IMG/VR virus record: IMGVR_UViG_3300017782_000026
Span: 1 to 51,319 of that record
Strand: one strand, 5' to 3'
DNA length: 51,319 nucleotides
DNA from: a virus
Part shown: piece after piece, positions 13,879 to 51,096 of the stretch
How the letters are laid out: the number at the start of each line of letters is the position of its first letter
Position numbering within the stretch: the first letter of the stretch is position 1
Translations under genes and position numbers: made by a program
The notes under the pieces: model-generated
What the model was told of the DNA's origin: nothing
Seen by the model: the letters and a program-made list of their open reading frames with translations, nothing else
Databases searched by the model: none

Positions 13879-16800
13879 CTACTGCTCTTCCCATGTTACA
13901 CCTAAGCTAATAGCATCGTCAGAATTTTCTGTTTGGACATGACTTGTATCTGAGTCAACACAGAAATATAGACTGTCTGCAATATCTGTTAACGGAAACG
14001 ATAGATATTCTTTGTTATAATCAAAGTAAGCGTCTAGGTCAAATTGTTCGGTACCTGTCTGCAAGTATAGTGTTGCTACATTTGTACCAGTGTTCGGTAT
14101 AGGCACAACTACATCAGTCGCTATTTTCAATGAACTTAGACCCTCAATCTCAGCAGTTTCTTTTGTTGCTGAATAATTCATATTCTCTCCATCATAAGCA
14201 TATCTACCATCTGGTAGGAATGGCTCAGTGGTGGTCAAGATTACAGTACCTTCTACTGATTGAAGAAGTTCAAAATAATACTGATCGCCTTCTTTATATA
14301 GTCTACCAAATACAGTGATATTGTCAGACGAAACTCTAGCCCTAAACCAACCATATAAGAACTCACCGTTTTGCATATAGCTTCTAGAGTCTCCGTTAGA
14401 CCCACCAGTAGACACTGGTAAGGGCGTATTAGTACTATCAATAGTGTACTCTGATGCAGAATCCAATTTAAAATCATTAGTTGGACTAACAAGACTTTGG
14501 AACAATGGGGTCTTCTTGAATCTAAGTCGAACTGAGTTTGAGTTTGCGGCGTCAGCAGAACTATTAGATGTAGACAGCTTAGTTGGATATACTTGCACTC
14601 TGTTACGAACTGCATTACTCTCTCTCGTACTCAAAATAACACGCTTGGTTTCAAGACCATATATCGTGTTGGCTCTATCTGGTAGAAGTTTGATACTACT
14701 GCCTTGAAGTTCTCTATTGAAGTAAACTCTAGTAGCGTCTGCCCAAATAACTTTAACGTTATTATCTAATTTACTATTGGTAATAACTGATGCGCCCATA
14801 AAGAATACTGGGTCATGTTCGGCAAGGCTACTATTACCATCAATATGAGAATCAGTCTCTACGCTCGGTGTAGCGATTCCGTTCAGATTGTTGTTCACCT
14901 GCGAATTGCTCTGAGCATACTTTTTACCCCTAGCAGATACTGAGTCTGGATTATTATAACTATACAGACGAACAGTACCACGGTCACCACCATCGATGTA
15001 ATATGAAGCACCATACTTAACAATGTTATGAGAGTTTGAACCATAACCTTGATCTGCAATACCCACACCTGCAACATCTTCACCATCACCACCACAATAC
15101 TGACTACCGCCACCATAAGTTGTGTAAGTAATTGGTAGTGTTGCGTTACCAAGAGATGCAATCTTCAACTGATTCGATGCTCTTAGGTGATGTACTCGTA
15201 CCCATCGTGCTTCACCATTACTTACAGGAACATATGCTAAGAACAATGCACCTACCGCACCATACCACGAGAACTCAATTTTAAGCATCGTTACTTTCGT
15301 GAAGTCAAAGTCGTATAGGCTATCTTGATTTTCTGTTACGCCTTCACCATTAATAAACTTCTCACCAGGTCTAACAGTACCAAGAACACCTGTTGCTAGA
15401 TCACTATACACACGCTTTCTAGTACCATTTTCCGCATTTGATCTAACCCCATTAAGTGCGTCATGACTGAATCTTGAGCGTGGGACACGATATTCATAAA
15501 CGCCCCAGTATTCTGGCTTAACATTATTCTTAACCCAGTTTACATACTCTGGATAGAAGTTTACATTATCGATCTGCGATCTGATTACATCAACACCGGC
15601 ACCTTGTTGCGGGTTAATTGCAGTGTTAATGAATCCTACAGTTTTATCATCGGATAATTCATCACCTGTAAGATCATCCAACGTATCATATAGATATGGG
15701 AACTGCGCTCCTACTGGAATTGCGCCCATGTCGGAAATTTGTATCGCACCACCGGTACCCTTGAATATCCTTTGGTTGCTTTCGCCTTTCTGACCATTAT
15801 TAGTTAAGGTTGCGCTAGTGGTCATTATCTCAGAAGTAACCCCTGTTGAATATGCTGATAGATCATAGTCGATGGGTGTTAAAAATGGCACGACAAGTTC
15901 TACATAAAAAGTGCCATTTTCGCTATTGAATGTAGATAAATCAGTAAACGTTACGATAGTGCCGTCTAGTTTTTGAGCATGGAAATGAGTAGCCTTTGGG
16001 TCAAGTACTCTGACAACTCGTAAGACCTCTCCATTGCGTACTCCATTGATAGTAACAATAGCCCCACTATCTTCAACCCATCTTAATTTGATGTGCTGAC
16101 CAAAAGTTACTCTACCCTTTGTTATCTTAATTTTTGATGGTAGTGTGGCTTCTTGCTCGATTATTGCTTTTACTTGCTCTGAGTCTTTAAGTAACGATGG
16201 ATCGTTCATAGCGGCATGAGTGTGGATAAGACCATCACGCAAAACAACCAAGTTGCCTGCGAAGCCCCTGTTACCTATTGTCATAGCCCGTTCTTGCTCT
16301 TCATTAAAGTTCGCAACAATGTATGACGCTAGTGCAGTAAGTTTGGTATATTCATCATCTGATGCAGTAAAGCCATAACTTAACAGATCATTCTGTATAA
16401 TAGATTTTAGATGAGTGTGTCTTTCTATTTCACTTACTACGCCAGCAGATTCTTCTTGAGAGTAAACAGACATACCAGTTCCTCGTAGGAACATAGAAGC
16501 GTTGTAAGTAGTTTCGGCATCACCACCACCGATAATATCATTCTTATAGCCATCTATCACATAGACTACATCTCGTTGACATTTGTTTCTGATAAAGTCT
16601 TGAATTTCAGTATCAGTAAGAGTTGATAGGTAGTTAAGCCCACCGTTAGTCGCACTATTACCACTAGTACCGTGATTTAGAGTGGTGTATGTAATTGCGT
16701 TACCATTTTGCTTTTTGGTGGTAACATAGTAGGCCCAGAAGTTCTTCTTAACATCAAAGAAAGAGTCTAATTTGCTACCCGATCTAGCGCCATACTCGCT

Positions 16801-21351: not shown

Positions 21352-22944
21352 TTAACTTACTCTTTTCCATATTGAACATAGAGCAAACTTAGGGTCTATG
21401 GGCATGGGTAGATTGTTTCCAGTTTTTTTCATTACAGCACCAACGAAGACATTCATTTCACCTGAAGTGTAGTCAGTCGCTTTACCAGTAGTTAGAAAAC
21501 CACTCATGGTAGTAACTCTATTATACATCCCCTGTTGAGCATCAGTGGCGTCAGTATTGTCGTAAGCATGATCATGAGAAGGTAGATTATCTATGTTTAT
21601 GTACGCTCTATCTGCACCACCTTGTGCGTTATTCGATGTATCTTGAGATGCGCCATAAGTAGATACATTTGCATATTGCCCAGAAAGGGAGTTAGTATTT
21701 ATCGGCCTAGGGTAGATCTCTATCTTATTACTCGCCGGCACTTGAACAACTAAATATCTACCAAGCGAACCATTGGTCGTACCCCAATCCCCTTCTATAT
21801 AATTATCACCCTCAAGAGCCTTCGTTATAGTCGGGCTGGCGTGTGATTGGATATTGTTTACCGAAACATATTCACCCACTTTGAACGAGTGGTTTGCACT
21901 AAGTGTCAGTTCAGCGGCTGCTCTGTAGATCTTAATAGGGTTACCACCTGAACCTGGCCCTTGAAGAGTACCAGTCGTTGTTCCATCAAGATTATCAGTG
22001 GTTGTTTCCCATACAGTGTCAGAATGCGAAGAAATGCCAATACCGGGGTCAAACCCCTTTAATGCTCTACCTTCTGCAAATCTCTCCCAAGATTGAGTAC
22101 CAGAACCAACTCCAAGAATAGTATAGGGGTTGCTTGTACTAGTTGTTGTGTACAAACAGCCTACTGGATATACTGCATTCAATACCGCATCGATGCCTGC
22201 TTGAGTAAGTCCACCCGCAGTACCGCTAGTGTTACCAGTGACATTACCAGTTACATCACCCTGAACGCCACCATTTGCAGTAATAAGACCAGATGCAGTT
22301 ACAGTCGAGAATGCGGCAGTCGTTGCTGTCGTACCACCTATAACAGTATTATCAATACTACCACCATCAATATCAACAGTAGTGAAGTTACCGGCCGCCG
22401 CTGTGGTTGAGCCAATAATAGTATTGTTAATTGTGCCACCACTAATAGTCACTGCATTAGCTGTTAATGTACCACCTGTAACTGTTAAGTCATCATCAAG
22501 AGTAACACTTGCAGGCATCATCCCATTACTTATTTTAAGGTTACTAGTTATAGCAGTAGTAGAAACAGTAAGATGATTAGTACCATCACTAAAGCCTACT
22601 GTCGTATGACCACTATTGGTTGCTATCTTCCAAGTATCACTACTGGCAAGTTTAAATTGTAACTTACCTTCTCCAGACGCCTTGTTGACTGCTATGCTAT
22701 CTGATGCGTTCAGTATACCAGAAAAATTGACTGTTGTTTGACCATCCAGTGGTGCTATGGTCGGTACCTTCAGTGTATTTGTATTGCTACCGAAAGTAAA
22801 GTCTCCAGTCAACCCAATATTAGACGCAACATTATTTGAGTCTAATGTGAAGGACTGCCCAGCAAAAGACACAAGATTATTTGTTATCTGTCTCCACTCA
22901 TCGAAAGTCTTGGCTGTAGTTACTTGATCTATTACTATACTCAT
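21352..22944 (-). CDS. Tail-collar-type fibre protein (short tail fibre-like)
   Basis: 530 residues. The C-terminal half has the phage tail-collar signature: AVYPVGCLYTT, then WERFAEGRALKGFD, then INIDNLPSHDH, ending LCSIWKRVS. SHDH-type histidines in this family (T4 gp12 and relatives) bind metal or lie in the receptor-binding head. The N-terminal half contains two or more tandem beta repeats of the form GG.I(N/D)NT(I/V)IG.TTA..A.F.TV (about residues 168-220), then GNVTGNTSGTAGG, likely a trimeric fibre shaft. The start codon sits in an ATGA overlap with the upstream 62-residue gene. It probably supplies the short or side tail fibre. Confidence 0.82.
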   Translation of the reverse strand: MSIVIDQVTTAKTFDEWRQITNNLVSFAGQSFTLDSNNVASNIGLTGDFTFGSNTNTLKVPTIAPLDGQTTVNFSGILNASDSIAVNKASGEGKLQFKLASSDTWKIATNSGHTTVGFSDGTNHLTVSTTAITSNLKISNGMMPASVTLDDDLTVTGGTLTANAVTISGGTINNTIIGSTTAAAGNFTTVDIDGGSIDNTVIGGTTATTAAFSTVTASGLITANGGVQGDVTGNVTGNTSGTAGGLTQAGIDAVLNAVYPVGCLYTTTSTSNPYTILGVGSGTQSWERFAEGRALKGFDPGIGISSHSDTVWETTTDNLDGTTTGTLQGPGSGGNPIKIYRAAAELTLSANHSFKVGEYVSVNNIQSHASPTITKALEGDNYIEGDWGTTNGSLGRYLVVQVPASNKIEIYPRPINTNSLSGQYANVSTYGASQDTSNNAQGGADRAYINIDNLPSHDHAYDNTDATDAQQGMYNRVTTMSGFLTTGKATDYTSGEMNVFVGAVMKKTGNNLPMPIDPKFALCSIWKRVS

Positions 22945-23129
22945 TTAGTTATCTCTTTAACTGTTTTTTCTAATAAAACCATAGCAGACTCTAACTTACA
23001 TATTTTCTGCTCTAATCCTTTGATATATTTATCTTGTTTGCGTTTTGCTAATGCAGCCTTATACGCACTTGTATCAGTATTAATGACACCAGCCCCGCTA
23101 TTAGATGCTGTATATGCAGAATTTTCCAT
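22941..23129 (-). CDS. Coiled-coil microprotein, unknown function
   Basis: 62 residues, sandwiched between the DUF4815 gene and the collar-type fibre gene with overlapping codons on both sides (TAATG upstream, ATGA downstream), which supports a real, co-translated gene. The N-terminal third is Ser/Ala/Thr-rich and probably disordered. The C-terminal half is a Lys-rich heptad helix (LEQKICKLESAMVLLEKTVK) that should form a coiled coil. It may act as a fibre chaperone or as a trimeric connector between the DUF4815 protein and the fibre. No family was recognised. Confidence 0.7.
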   Translation of the reverse strand: MENSAYTASNSGAGVINTDTSAYKAALAKRKQDKYIKGLEQKICKLESAMVLLEKTVKEITK

Positions 23130-26100
23130 TATGTTAACGCTATTGCTCTGTAGTCATATATGTGTGGGAAAAGATTCACATCTGGAACAATACCACTAAA
23201 TCTAGGGTTATTTAACTCTGATTCAGACGAAGTATTACCATGTCTTAATACAAACTTCAACTGGAAGGTGCTGTATTCTAAAGAGTCTACCGTTTCTGGT
23301 AAGTTATATTCAAACTGTCTATAATCTTTTGTATTACTGGTGTTTGAATATAAGTCTGGATTCTTATTCGTTAACTGATACCACTGCCCCTGATCTTCAC
23401 CTTGAATAGTTGGATATGTAAATCTCCCATACACATCGACAAATGTACCTGCAGGTCTGTAAGCCGCAAGATATACTCTCATTCCTACTGCATTCAAGTC
23501 TTCTTTTAGAATAACCTCTTTAGTCACCCAATTAGATGTAGACAATTCAGTGTTTGTGATATGATATTCATAACCTTGAATCTCAGACAACTCCTTATCT
23601 ATAATAGGTGTCGCCGTAGAAACACCATTGTTAGATAACTCGACACGAATCTTAAAGTCTTGTGATGCTGAAGGGTTGCTTTCAACATGACTTTTACTAT
23701 GCACTGATCTAATATTATTTGTCGTATAAACATTAGCCTTTTTATCAATCTCCTTATCAATCAACCCATCGCCCTTCAATAGAGAAAGACTTGTGTTGGT
23801 AGTAAGAGAGTCTGCAACATAAATCTGTGGTTGGAAATACGAAATCTTTTGAGACTTAACACCATTTATGCCTGCAGAAGCACCACTATCAGAGCCCTGT
23901 ACAATCTGAGAGTTAGGTCTAGCCATACCACTGGAAGCAGAGTTACCCTCATCAGTACACACGAACTGAACACCGACAGCAGGGGTAACATTCTGACTCA
24001 CACCTGCATTACGCCAATCAGCATTTGAAGTATCACCCTGACTTACGTCAGTAATTGTATAGGTAGTACCTACATCGAAAGAGCCCATTTGAACTGGTGC
24101 TTCATCGTCAAGATAGTTAGTAGTTACTGCGGAGCTTCCTCGTAAAAATATCTCATGTGGTTTTCTTGGGTTAAAGTGAGAAACCTTACCCGCAACTACT
24201 AGAGTCACTTGAGCAGACAATGTAGCTTCTGAGAAAGGCGTGTCCACAGTAAAGACCTTGACAGCAGCCTCTGTATCAACATTTAAGACCTTGGCTAGAA
24301 TGAAGTCCGTGGCTGTATTATTTTCTATGTGTATATAATCACCGATAGATATCCCCGGTGAACCGGAAATTGTAATTATGTTAAGATCATCACCACTAAC
24401 ACTTGCACTAAACGTCTGCGATTTCTTAACATATGCGATTTCGTCTACCAAGAAATTTCCACTAACATCTCTAATATTAATAAACTCGGGGTCATTCGGC
24501 TCTAGGTCTACTGTTGAGTTGGTCGTAGAGAAGTCATAGCGATTTATCGAAAACTTAATGTCCTCGTCTTGATAAGACTTCCATGCACTATCGTTTGTTG
24601 ACGTAAATAGAACGCCATCACCCCAGTCATTAGTAATAGCAAGCTGAGTTGCAACGGAACCCTTAGACTTACTAATCTCACCAACTTTTGCAGTATGGAT
24701 TAAGTAGTCTGGTGAGTTAGCATCCGGTATAACTACGAACGAATATTCTTTATCTGCGTTCAGTCTAACAGGATTGTCGAACGTAAATTTGGTAGCCATA
24801 GTACCATCATCAGACACATAAACCTCTGATGGTTCATGATGTTTGCTTGCGAATGGTAGTACATTCTTAGACGGGTAACCATTTTGAACTTCTCGTATTT
24901 GTAATGTCACCCCAGTTGTTGCACTCTTTCTCTTAAAGTATACGTCAATATCACTAATAAATGCTACATTACTACCTTCTGTGCTAGAAGATTTAACTTT
25001 AAATGTTTGTGCAATCGGGTCACCGATTCGTCTAGTGACTTCTCTCTGGACAATATCTATCTGAGTGTCGAAGTCTACAGTTCTTGTGGTCATACTCACA
25101 GAAGACTTATTGACTGCAAAGTTATACCCTCTATATGTCGCTTTACCATATGAGGTAGAGCCAGACTCTATAGAGTTGTACTCATCAACATCCACAACTT
25201 CAAGTACGTTCTCACCAACAAAGAAAGTTTCTGCGGGTATCATAAAGACAGCCGCCAAGACACCATTAGAATCACTTCTTACTACTCTACCCTTACTTCT
25301 GCGCCAAGAACTAGAAACTCTTTTAACATCGAGAGTAGAACTATTGCGTCTACCAAATCTAATATTTCTGGCGGGCGCAACGTGTTCGTTAACATCAACC
25401 TCGTCAAAGAAGAAGTAGTGACGAGTTGATGGTCTTAAACCAGTGATAAGAATCTTAATTTCCTTTCTTCTCAGATAAGGCTTCATATTCACATCAGTAA
25501 CGAAATTACCCACCGCCTGATTTAGTTGACTAGAACTACTAGTCAAAGATTTGGTTTCAATGTCTTGAAGGAATGTTCCAGTTCTAACTCTTCGTCTACC
25601 ACGCCTAGTTCTCTGAGTGCTTATTCGCTCCTCGCTGAGAAGTTCTTCACTTGTAATCGGCATGATCTCTTGGATATTATCGAGCAAATCCAACATTGGA
25701 CCTTCTATATCAATCTCTAAATTAACTTCTGGATTCTTAATTACGTCATACCCAGAGTCAAAAGGTGGATCAATAATAGTTCTACCTCTAAAGTCATAGA
25801 AGTTAGACACACAGTTTCTGAAAGAAGTTGCGTAAGGCTGATTGATAACATTGACATTAGTTCCAGTTTTAGCCATAGTCACAACATCTGGGAAAGACAA
25901 TTGTACGCCATCACCAGTAGACGCTTTTAAGTCTACAGGGAATTGTTTCACAGAAGGTGTTACAACTGTTCTACCTCTGTCAAGCGAAGATTTAAACTCT
26001 GGATCAAGAATATCTGCTAATTGAACATTGGCAAATGCGTCTGCTAAAATACCATTCTTAAATCTGTCTGCGCCATTTTCATCGGGTATTAGCATACTGT

Positions 26101-47240: not shown

Positions 47241-47987
47241 ATGGCTTTTAGTATAAGCGAATTCAATTCAAAAATAGGTCAGCATGGTCTAGCCAAAAGC
47301 AATTTGTTCTTTGCTAGAGTAAACATTCCTCGTGCGTTGCGTGACGAGTTAGGTGCAATACCAGTAAGTAGAGACTTAGAGTTTTTCTGTAGATCAGTTC
47401 AGTTACCAGAAATGGAATTGGGTACAGCAGACATTCAACAACAGGGGTTCGGAGCCATCACTAGAAGACCACAAAGTATGTCTTTCCCAGTTCTACCTGC
47501 AACATTTATGATGGATTCGAACTTTGGCGTGTTAAAGTTCTATCACAGATGGATGCAGGCGGTGGTAAACTACGACAGAAGTGGTGGTAATTATGGGTCA
47601 GTAAATAACGCATTACCATTTGAAATGGGTTATAAAAGCGAATATGCTTCAACAATGGATGTTGCAGTATTTTCTCAAAACACAAATAAAGTTGAATATG
47701 TGTATAGCTTTTCTGGATTATACCCAGTAAGTGTTGGTAATATGTCAGTCGCATGGGAAAACTCCGCAGAAGTAATGGCGTTACCAGTAGGGTTTACATA
47801 TGACGAATTAAAGGTTACTGGTTCGCAACAGGGTAAAGTTCAATCAAACAAACCACCTTTAGGTACACTGCTGAAATGGTTCTCTAGAATTAATAGTTTC
47901 ACTAATTCAATACAGAGTATTCAAAATCCAACGAATATTCAGGACTCAATAAATAACATACAAAACATTAGCAATATGTTCGATTAA
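47241..47987 (+). CDS. gp54: Tail tube initiator gp54-like
   Basis: 248 residues (T4 gp54 has 320). The fold pattern is that of tail tube proteins: NIPRALRDE, FFCRSVQLPEMELGTADIQQ, SMSFPVLPATFMMDSNFG, VLKFYHRWMQAVVNY and YVYSFSGLYPVSVGNMSVAW. gp54 and gp48 form the first rings above the hub on which gp19 polymerises. The Asn/Gln/Ser-rich C-terminal tail (SIQNPTNIQDSINNIQNIS) is repetitive and probably extended. A gp19-like tube protein is the alternative, but the position among hub genes favours gp54. AGGA ribosome site. Confidence 0.75.
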   Translation: MAFSISEFNSKIGQHGLAKSNLFFARVNIPRALRDELGAIPVSRDLEFFCRSVQLPEMELGTADIQQQGFGAITRRPQSMSFPVLPATFMMDSNFGVLKFYHRWMQAVVNYDRSGGNYGSVNNALPFEMGYKSEYASTMDVAVFSQNTNKVEYVYSFSGLYPVSVGNMSVAWENSAEVMALPVGFTYDELKVTGSQQGKVQSNKPPLGTLLKWFSRINSFTNSIQSIQNPTNIQDSINNIQNISNMFD

Positions 47988-48020: not shown

Positions 48021-48734
48021 ATGGGGTTACCTAAAATCGATCTACCTTTGTTTGAGACGAAAATATTCTCAACTGGCGAGACAATAAAATATAGACCATT
48101 TACAGTTAAAGAAGAAAAGGTACTGTTGATGGCGCAAGAGTCTGGCGATAACAAGCAGATATCGTTGGCAATGAAGCAGATTATCAATAGTTGTATTGTT
48201 GACTCGTTAGACATAGATATTCTACCGATGTTTGATGTAGAGTATCTAATGTTGCAAATTAGAGCGAAATCTGTGAATAATATTATAAACTTTACTCTAA
48301 TTGATCCAGATACAGACAACCCAGTAACACTTGAATTGAATATTGACGATATAGGTTTTGTAACTCCAGAAGGGCATAACAAGGAGATCAGGGTATCTGA
48401 AGATATGCGATTGATAATGCGATACCCCGCATTAGACGAAGTTAATATGTTCCTAAATTCAAATGATGTGGATAATGTTTCGGCTGATACTGCATTTAGT
48501 GTTATGACTTCGTGTATAGAAACTGTGGTTAATGGTGATGAAGTTGCAAAGTTGACAGACTACAGTGCAGAAGAAGTTGAAGAGTTTATTAATGGTTTTC
48601 CATCAAGTGCTATGGAAGAACTTAAAAACTTTTTCGAGACTATGCCTAGATTGAGTTACACTGCTAAGTATACAGACTCAGAAGGCGAAGAGAAAGAAAT
48701 GTTACTGGAGGGTACAGAAACTTTTTTTCTCTAA
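48021..48734 (+). CDS. gp26: Baseplate hub/assembly protein gp26-like
   Basis: 237 residues (T4 gp26 has 208). It matches the T4_baseplate family: LPKIDLPLFETKIFSTGETI, YRPFTVKEEKVLLMAQESGD, KQIINSCIVDSLDIDILPMF, then DVEYLMLQIRAKSVNN. gp26 is required for hub assembly in T4. The frame ends with a run of seven T (48722-48728), reading acT-TTT-TTT, and the stop TAA overlaps the ATG of the next ORF, which is in the -1 frame. A -1 slip on this run would fuse gp26 to the next ORF without a stop. GGAG ribosome site. Confidence 0.85.
   Translation: MGLPKIDLPLFETKIFSTGETIKYRPFTVKEEKVLLMAQESGDNKQISLAMKQIINSCIVDSLDIDILPMFDVEYLMLQIRAKSVNNIINFTLIDPDTDNPVTLELNIDDIGFVTPEGHNKEIRVSEDMRLIMRYPALDEVNMFLNSNDVDNVSADTAFSVMTSCIETVVNGDEVAKLTDYSAEEVEEFINGFPSSAMEELKNFFETMPRLSYTAKYTDSEGEEKEMLLEGTETFFL
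48722..48728 (+). promoter_or_regulatory. Candidate -1 frameshift slippery site (T7)
   Basis: Seven T in the phase T-TTT-TTT relative to gp26, three codons before its stop. After a -1 slip the ribosome reads Ser-Leu-Met and continues in the ORF at 48734, giving a product of about 294 residues. This layout matches the G/GT tail-assembly-chaperone frameshift known in other tailed phages. No obvious downstream pseudoknot was found by eye. Confidence 0.5.
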
Positions 48735-48904
48735 TGTTGTGTCATACTAGTCTAGGGAATTACTACAAAACATTATTCTCATTGGCGCAACATCATAAAT
48801 ATAGTATTGCCGATATAGAAAATATATTACCATTTGAAAGAGACTTATATGTTGAAATGTTAGTGGATTATCTTAAAGAAGCAGAAGAAAAATCAAAACG
48901 ATAA
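48734..48904 (+). CDS. Short gp51/chaperone-T-like ORF in the -1 frame of gp26
   Basis: 56 residues if started at the ATG overlapping the gp26 stop (TAATG). The sequence contains GNYYKTLFSLAQHHKYSIAD and NILPFERDLYVEMLVDYLKE, a pattern (aromatic-rich helix, then LP-ERDLYV and a charged helix) typical of the short protein after gp26 in marine T4-like phages and of the second part of frameshifted tail assembly chaperones. In T4, gene 51 (hub assembly catalyst) follows gene 26. It may be made alone by re-initiation or as a -1 fusion to gp26. No ribosome site beyond the coupled start is seen. Confidence 0.78.
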   Translation: MLCHTSLGNYYKTLFSLAQHHKYSIADIENILPFERDLYVEMLVDYLKEAEEKSKR

Positions 48905-48915
48905 CGGAGTATAAA

Positions 48916-49239
48916 ATGAGTGAAGAAACAAAAGCAGAAGTATTTCACCCTGCTGATACAAATGGTGATGGGCAAGTAAGTAAGCAAGAAGAAGCGTTGT
49001 ATCTTGAGTTTAAACGCAAGGAACTAGAAGATGCTGATGCTATGCGTGATGCACAGCGTAACATGACATGGTTTGCTCTTGGTGGTTTGTTGTTATATCC
49101 ATTTGCCGTTGTTCTAGCATCTCTCGCAGGATTAAATCAAGCACAAGAAACGCTAGGTGATATGGCACCGACATACTTTGTCGCTGTTGCCGGTATCGTT
49201 GCGGCATTCTTTGGCACACAAGCAATGAAGAAGAAGTAG
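48916..49239 (+). CDS. EF-hand membrane protein (two spans)
   Basis: 107 residues. Residues 14-25 (DTNGDGQVSKQE) are a perfect 12-residue EF-hand calcium loop with D1, N3, D5, G6, V8 and E12. Two hydrophobic segments follow: MTWFALGGLLLYPFAVVLAS at about 49-69 and YFVAVAGIVAAFFGTQAM at about 87-104, ending KKK, which suggests both termini face the same side. Between them is a short polar loop. Size and topology resemble small two-span holins, but no holin family was recognised, and an EF-hand in a holin would be unusual. GGAG ribosome site; the gene follows the gp26/gp51-like pair. Confidence 0.8.
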   Translation: MSEETKAEVFHPADTNGDGQVSKQEEALYLEFKRKELEDADAMRDAQRNMTWFALGGLLLYPFAVVLASLAGLNQAQETLGDMAPTYFVAVAGIVAAFFGTQAMKKK

Positions 49240-49380: not shown

Positions 49381-51096
49381 ATGGCAGATGACTCCAAAAT
49401 AACCGATGTACTATCTTCTGTAAATAGAACGATGATGGATCAGTCTGCGTTGATTTCTGATATGCAAAGAACTCAGAGGAAAACTACTGAACTTCAAAAA
49501 GAGCAAGAAGAAGATAGAAAACGTAAGGAACTTGAGCAAAGAGTAACAGACGACTTCGAGAAGAAAGAAAGAGCCAGAGATACAGTCAGAGATAGACAGA
49601 GAGCAAGTTCTGCTGAAAGACGTAAGGGTGGCACAAGTGTTGCTGGCGCACTTGGTCGAATGACTTTACTAGGATTGGGCGCACCAAATATTGTAGGATT
49701 TATTGAGGGGTTCACAAAGGGTATATCTGAAGTCATGTTAAACATGGGTGATTCACCGATAGATGAGTCCCCAGTAAAACAAGCTGTATCTGACGCAATC
49801 AGTGATGAGATGGTCGTCAGACCTCTGGTATTTGGTATTATGGCTCGTCTAGTACCTGTTATTGGTAGATATCTAGCGTTACCTGCGGCTAGTGCGGGAT
49901 TAGCACAAGCTATTGCTGAAAAACTGGGGTTAGAGGGGAGAGGTCAAGATTTGGCTATGCTAGGTGGTGCTGCCGCTGGCGTTGGTGGTATGTATGCTCT
50001 GGGCAAAGCGAACGAGGCCAGACTAGTCCGAAGAGAATTGAGAGTAGAAGAGAAAAAGGCTAGATTACAAGCAAAACAAGAAAGAGAAAGAGCCGAGAAA
50101 CTAAGGAAAGCTAAAGAAGACGCAGAAAGAAAACGACAAGCGCAACAAGAAAAAGATGATAAAAGAAGAGCGAAAGAAGACGAAAAAGAAGCTAAAAAAA
50201 GACAGAAGGCCGCTGAAACAAAAAGGGCTAAATTCCGAGCAGTACCGAAGGTAGAGTTTACTAGTACATCTCAGATACAGGGCTTTGCTGATGGCGTTCG
50301 AGATATGAACAAAACCCCTAATAGACTACCTAGCGGCGCTAATGTATCACCAGGCGGTAACGTGATACAGGGTAATTTTGGAAAAATGACTGCGGCAGAC
50401 ATTGCAGAGAAAAACAAAGCATTAAGCCCTGAGAAATTAGCAAAATATAGCAGATTTTTAAATCTTCTAAAAATTTCGGGTGTGGTAAGTTCATTACCTG
50501 CCTTATACAATGTGGCAAATGCAATCTATAATGATGAGCCAGAATCAGTAGTCAAAAGACTATTAATCGAAGCCCTAGGTGGTGTTAGTGGTAGTATATT
50601 GGGTACAGCCGCAGGTGTCGCACTTGGTTCAGCTATACCGGGTATTGGTAATCTAGTAGGTGGTGGTGTTGGTGGTATAGCAGGCTTCTTGTTAGGCGAT
50701 CAACTTGGTGTAGAAGTAGCGGACTATCTACTAGGCGGTCCACCACCAAATCCAAATAAGCGCACAGAGCAAACCAGAAGAGGCACAAGAACATATTTTC
50801 TCAAGCCAGGTGATGAGGGTTATGTTGCCCCTACAGGGAGTTCTGATTTGATACTACCCACAGATGCATCACAAGAATCATCGACTACCAACCTCAATAC
50901 AATGGAGAGAAATCCTCTGGGTCGGGTCGGTGGATTTAGTGGTGCCGGTGGTGATACTGTTATAAGTGGTGGCAATCAAGTGGATAATAGTTCAGTTCGT
51001 GGTGGCGACACTAATATCACAAACAATATTATTCAAAGTCCTGACGCTTCTTTACAAAACATACAGCCACACTTACCATTCCCACAAGCACTTTAA
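49381..51096 (+). CDS. Long coiled-coil protein, candidate tape measure or gp29-like
   Basis: 571 residues (T4 gp29, the hub tail-length protein, has 590). The first 85 residues are a charged helix (LQKEQEEDRKRKELEQRV), followed by hydrophobic Gly/Ala helices (FIEGFTKGISEVMLN; ALPAASAGLAQAIAEKLGL; GGAAAGVGGMYALGK). About residues 210-283 form an unusually long Lys/Arg/Glu/Ala helix. After a linker comes a Gly-zipper hydrophobic region (about 390-455: GSILGTAAGVALGSAIPGIG, LVGGGVGGIAGFLLGDQLG). The C-terminus is Gly/Ser/Asn-rich. Helical rod plus hydrophobic Gly zipper fits a tape measure ejected into the host membrane, and the gene order after gp26-gp51 parallels T4. No sequence identity to gp29 was confirmed. 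Confidence 0.55.
   Translation: MADDSKITDVLSSVNRTMMDQSALISDMQRTQRKTTELQKEQEEDRKRKELEQRVTDDFEKKERARDTVRDRQRASSAERRKGGTSVAGALGRMTLLGLGAPNIVGFIEGFTKGISEVMLNMGDSPIDESPVKQAVSDAISDEMVVRPLVFGIMARLVPVIGRYLALPAASAGLAQAIAEKLGLEGRGQDLAMLGGAAAGVGGMYALGKANEARLVRRELRVEEKKARLQAKQERERAEKLRKAKEDAERKRQAQQEKDDKRRAKEDEKEAKKRQKAAETKRAKFRAVPKVEFTSTSQIQGFADGVRDMNKTPNRLPSGANVSPGGNVIQGNFGKMTAADIAEKNKALSPEKLAKYSRFLNLLKISGVVSSLPALYNVANAIYNDEPESVVKRLLIEALGGVSGSILGTAAGVALGSAIPGIGNLVGGGVGGIAGFLLGDQLGVEVADYLLGGPPPNPNKRTEQTRRGTRTYFLKPGDEGYVAPTGSSDLILPTDASQESSTTNLNTMERNPLGRVGGFSGAGGDTVISGGNQVDNSSVRGGDTNITNNIIQSPDASLQNIQPHLPFPQAL

Follow-up and report, generated by a model that had tools for sequence, protein, structure and literature searches.

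A gp26/gp51-type tail assembly chaperone locus with a probable programmed −1 frameshift in an uncultivated marine T4-like phage

Frameshifting is the usual way in which tailed phages make tail assembly chaperones (TACs). In 2004, Xu, Hendrix and Duda reportedly described conserved tail-gene frameshifts of double-stranded DNA phages, with lambda gpG/gpGT among them. Vladimirov, Gautam and Davidson (2022; Virology 566:9-15) reportedly found that several groups of T4-like phages have kept the frameshift, whereas T4 uses the separate genes 26 and 51. Outside the tail genes, in the −1 signal of E. coli dnaX, the heptamer A AAA AAG is preceded by a Shine-Dalgarno-like (SD-like) element at about 10 nt and followed by a stem-loop at about 5 nt. 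One later paper cites Vladimirov et al. 2022 for T4-like phages that do without frameshifting and carry a short gene alongside a fused one (PMC10885494), and another credits them with poly-T shift signals in the TAC-N genes of T4-like phages (PMC12846349). According to these two papers, T4-like tail assembly chaperones had already been identified by Vladimirov, Gautam and Davidson in 2022, so the statement in an earlier, sequence-only reading that the role was not firmly assigned in T4 does not hold; these TACs are the same gene pair as the one described here, a gp26-type TAC-N and a gp51-type TAC-C. The principle of a frameshifted TAC in T4-like phages is already known, and the locus below is a well-supported further example.

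Layout and protein families of the gp26 locus

The window, by which we mean the whole stretch of DNA analyzed, corresponds to a 51,319-base IMG/VR virus record from an uncultivated marine T4-like phage. None of the phage records searched nearly matched its last 11.3 kb, and its gp26 was at most about 42% identical to that of any phage record searched. Three features make up the coding part of the locus:

48021..48734, + strand: gp26-like TAC-N (chaperone G equivalent), 237 aa, assigned from PF12322, phrog_150, an AlphaFold2 model and a match to 2OB9
48722..48728, + strand: slippery heptamer T TTT TTT, proposed −1 shift site, in phase in all 50 distinct relatives
48728..48904, + strand: −1 frame extension, Ser-Leu followed by the 56-aa gp51-type TAC-C domain (phrog_634; the ORF itself is 48734-48904)

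The 3' codons of gp26 read ACT TTT TTT CTC TAA, with the stop at 48732-48734, and this stop shares bases with the ATG of the second ORF (TAATG). Past the heptamer, the −1 codons are TCT CTA ATG (Ser-Leu-Met), after which there is no stop until one ending at 48904, and a slip on the heptamer is predicted to give a fusion of 236 + 58 = 294 aa. The sequence-only reading had pointed to a zero-frame heptamer near the gp26 stop, a −1 frame open into the 56-residue ORF with a Ser-Leu-Met join, a TAATG overlap and a fusion of about 294 residues, and all of these are found in, or computed from, the window sequence. When the 84 window ORFs of at least 60 aa were scanned, three had a canonical in-frame slippery heptamer and a −1 frame passing their own stop, and gp26 alone among them had the heptamer at its very end and a family-matched continuation. 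The other two ORFs, 22924-23199 (+) and 14253-14615 (−), have the heptamers GGGAAAA and TTTAAAT, which are probably due to chance.

Searches against family models placed gp26 in PF12322 (T4_baseplate; E 2.5e-55, with 188 bits against a Pfam gathering cut-off of 24.5) and matched it to phrog_150 (E 1.5e-59). An AlphaFold2 model, built from an alignment of the window and the relatives' loci described below, reached a pLDDT of 87.7. The first 85-95 residues of this model resembled both the HK97 tail assembly chaperone 2OB9 (residues 1-85, with a Z of 7.8 and an rmsd of 4.2 across 84 residues) and the uncharacterised 3FGX (Z 7.8), whereas the next-best row in the comparison scored Z 2.7 and unrelated rows scored 2.7 or less. 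The match is moderate but isolated and supports a TAC-N fold for the N-terminus of gp26. A Foldseek search of the model against the PDB alone returned nothing significant, and a sequence search for PDB chains gave no credible match.

The second ORF matched phrog_634 (gp51, baseplate hub assembly catalyst) with an E of 1.4e-22, and it weakly matched the end of phrog_150 (245-277 of 282; E 0.025), a model that takes in fused forms such as T4 gp51. An alignment of 46 of the −1 frame products contained 10 invariant columns, including P35, E37, D39 and Y41. These family models identify the second ORF as a C-terminal domain of the gp51 type (TAC-C). When the profiles of the window families were compared directly with T4 gp51 alone, the N part produced no hit and the C part a weak one, so the link of the window pair to T4 gp51 rests on the Pfam and PHROG models. 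As read from the coding sequence, the locus has the capacity for a short and a long form with a common N-terminal part, as expected of a TAC locus.

Conservation of the heptamer and its flanking elements

We fetched 80 IMG/VR viral loci with gp26 relatives and, after dropping near-copies, retained 50 distinct sequences, with the window counted. In 80/80 loci, the second ORF lies in −1 relative to gp26, a T run is present at the gp26 end and the −1 frame is open through the junction, so that the alignment of relatives' gp26 3' ends proposed as a check of the sequence-only reading came out in its favor. The in-phase heptamer T_TTT_TT(T/C) was present in each of the 50 distinct relatives, as TTTTTTT in 45 and TTTTTTC in 5. 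Its first Phe codon was TTT in 50/50, compared to 69.6% among other Phe codons, and the preceding codon ended in T in 50/50, be it Thr, Ser or Asn; where it encoded Thr, it was ACT in 32/32 compared to 35% elsewhere. This codon bias indicates synonymous constraint on the heptamer, which protein-level conservation does not explain. The locus combines a zero-frame X XXY YYZ heptamer with a −1 frame open into a conserved product, as looked for in a programmed −1 site. A chance heptamer is ruled out by the 50/50 conservation and the synonymous bias, and an assembly or sequencing error in the window by the like arrangement of 80 other loci.

The heptamer, as T_TTT_TT(C/T/G), was also found in cyanophages and other named phages (S-SM2, P-SSM5, S-T4, Sf-FP1, S-BM3, S-CRM01, AG-345-E15, phiM19, ValKK3, AS-szw, ACP17 and RHph_N34), of which AS-szw and ACP17 are without a start codon at the overlap and have the second ORF unannotated. 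The distant relatives Cygsa01, K469, LHE287, K393 and GR28A (L085, L088, L095, L097 and L098) are without the canonical heptamer and keep TAATG and the −1 phase; these phages possibly use re-initiation or a non-canonical shift. In Stenotrophomonas phage IME-SM1 (L092:3150-3340), the corresponding sequence is GATTTTTCGG, whose run of five T is shorter than the six or seven seen in relatives; the gp26 annotated there continues beyond its normal end and the second domain is in another frame, reflecting either a sequencing indel or a real change.

Three further features flank the heptamer of the window:

48707..48712, + strand: GGAGGG, candidate SD-like stimulator, 9 nt before the heptamer
48734..48744, + strand: 5' arm of a downstream stem, beginning 5 nt past the heptamer, drawn from pairing and covariation
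48783..48793, + strand: 3' arm of this stem, pairing with 48734-48744 over 11 bp

Of the 50 relatives, 49 have an SD-like 4-mer upstream of the heptamer, a feature present at 7.4% of in-phase control positions, and in 48/50 the final AGG stops 9-10 nt short of the heptamer. Across 44 sequences, 91.7% of the stem cells can pair, compared to 27-48% with the partners slid, and 31 cells have changed on both sides, compared to 13.1 in shuffles (0/500 shuffles as high), although kinship among the sequences inflates these covariation counts. The clearest covarying pair joins two synonymous positions, with Leu TTG accompanying Gln CAA (27) and CTG/CTA accompanying CAG (18); the table of Leu T/C against Gln A/G is 27/1/2/18, with 3 exceptions and a Fisher p of 4.6e-10 that is uncorrected for phylogeny. 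When corrected for the tree, nearly all independent pairs changed in the same direction, and they were too few for significance. The stability of the stem in the single window sequence is modest (z −1.3), and the ATG of the second ORF falls inside the stem. More distant phages differ in their downstream structure; close to the heptamer, P-SSM5 and Sf-FP1 carry strong hairpins of their own. A candidate stimulator of the kind expected at a programmed −1 site, be it an RNA structure or an SD-like element at standard spacing, is present, and the SD-like element and the stem may together stimulate slippage. If any part of the locus is new, it is most likely these two elements, and the three-part signal may represent a new detail.

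Slippage and its alternatives

We consider it very probable that gp26 and the next ORF form one recoded TAC-N/TAC-NC (G/GT) locus using programmed −1 ribosomal frameshifting, with the roles proposed below for the short and long forms. Both the frameshift and the G/GT chaperone role had been put forward from sequence alone, and the comparative and structural evidence supports them. What we observed is the sequence, the phase, the conservation, the codon-level constraint, the covariation of the stem and the fold similarity of TAC-N; the occurrence of slippage, its efficiency, the action of the two flanking elements and the tail-assembly role in the window phage we infer.

Termination at the TAA followed by a restart at the overlapping ATG, yielding the 56-aa protein on its own while slippage plays no functional part, would fit the TAATG of the window, the ATG or GTG found at this site in 35/50 relatives and the TAATG kept by the heptamer-less distant lineages. 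Yet ACG, GCG or AGC stands there in the other 15/50, through nine state changes on the tree, and in four of the relatives (L019, L031, L064 and L069) the first 15 codons of the second ORF contain neither ATG nor GTG nor TTG. Since the second ORF is conserved even without a start codon at the overlap, slippage is the sole route common to all 50. GGAGGG is also 21 nt from the ATG, beyond the ordinary range for initiation, yet 9 nt from the heptamer; the synonymous constraint sits on the heptamer, and the ATG is buried in the stem. We therefore regard re-initiation in place of slippage as quite improbable. Of the two alternatives left side by side in the sequence-only reading, slippage stands, and re-initiation falls as a general mechanism. 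Re-initiation may add to slippage where the ATG is present, and since the window keeps TAATG, it could there add a free C-domain. In a more elaborate version, which we think rather unlikely, a single stem would govern −1 slippage (TAC-NC) as well as a restart at the stem-base ATG (free TAC-C), and Cygsa01, K469, GR28A and LHE287 would have moved to re-initiation or non-canonical slippage alone; T4-like phages would then represent three solutions (frameshift, overlap and gene duplication) to one stoichiometry problem.

The two frames could also be fused in the mRNA, through RNA polymerase slipping on the T7 run, and seven T could permit some such slipping on general grounds. On the other hand, 5/50 relatives and most of the named phages have just six T, and polymerase slippage would not require the conservation of such ribosomal stimulators as an SD-like element at 9-10 nt or a stem at 5 nt, which leaves this explanation less probable still than re-initiation. 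It is scarcely credible that the second ORF represents the remnant of a decayed gene or a frame left open by chance: it has only 56 codons and is unannotated in several records (e.g., ACP17, AS-szw and S-BM3), but its invariant residues across 46 sequences, its phrog_634 match and the open junction in every locus already refute this view through conservation.

Under programmed frameshifting, most ribosomes would end at the TAA and produce the 237-aa TAC-N, while a minority would slip −1 on T TTT TTT, held by an anti-SD/GGAGGG interaction upstream and by the stem-loop 5 nt downstream, and produce the 294-aa TAC-NC with its gp51-type C-terminal domain. Modelled on lambda gpG/gpGT, the division of labor would have TAC-N covering the tape measure and TAC-NC bringing in subunits of the tail tube, whose protein is encoded at 47241-47987. 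The tape measure is probably the 571-aa protein encoded downstream:

49381..51096, + strand: candidate tape measure protein, 571 aa, proposed from its position and a weak phrog_23574 match (E 2.7e-6)

This ORF is placed beyond two small ORFs downstream of the TAC pair, and its tape-measure matches are weak. Large ORFs at the same place in other T4-like phages gave weak matches to tape-measure phrogs in 3/5, and BLASTP of the candidate against T4 gp29 or the phiM19 ORF found no similarity. Between the TAC pair and the candidate, a 107-aa ORF (48916-49239) contains an EF-hand-like loop (DTNGDGQVSKQE) and hydrophobic stretches.

Comparison with T4 and other known systems

In most of the phage records examined, gp26 is labelled a baseplate hub subunit and gp51 a hub assembly catalyst, and annotations often overlook the second ORF. 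The deposited annotations of S-T4, Sf-FP1 and S-BM3 cut down or skip it (L099:2265-2399, L101:2268-2393 and L102 downstream of 2205), probably because there is no good start codon at the overlap. The three-part signal eases both correct annotation and direct reporter tests. It also helps to explain the contested place of gp26 in the T4 hub, since gp26 makes more sense as a chaperone of assembly than as a component of the virion.

T4 gp26 and gp51 are both members of PF12322, and gp51 contains the phrog_634 part in addition. T4 gp51 thus has N and C parts in one ORF, whereas the window phage has the same two parts split by a −1 junction. T4 genes 26 (N) and 51 (NC) are separate and lie on opposite strands, which excludes use of the frameshift by T4 itself. 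Compared to the HK97 chaperone, the gp26-type protein extends past its HK97-like part into an additional domain. Lambda gpG/gpGT has a slippery site unlike the T TTT TTT of the window. The candidate tape measure follows the TAC pair and, if it is one, would keep to the G-GT-H order of lambda. E. coli dnaX has the same three-part layout as the window, with A AAA AAG in place of T TTT TTT; the gene is unrelated, and the dnaX product is truncated, whereas that of the window would be extended.
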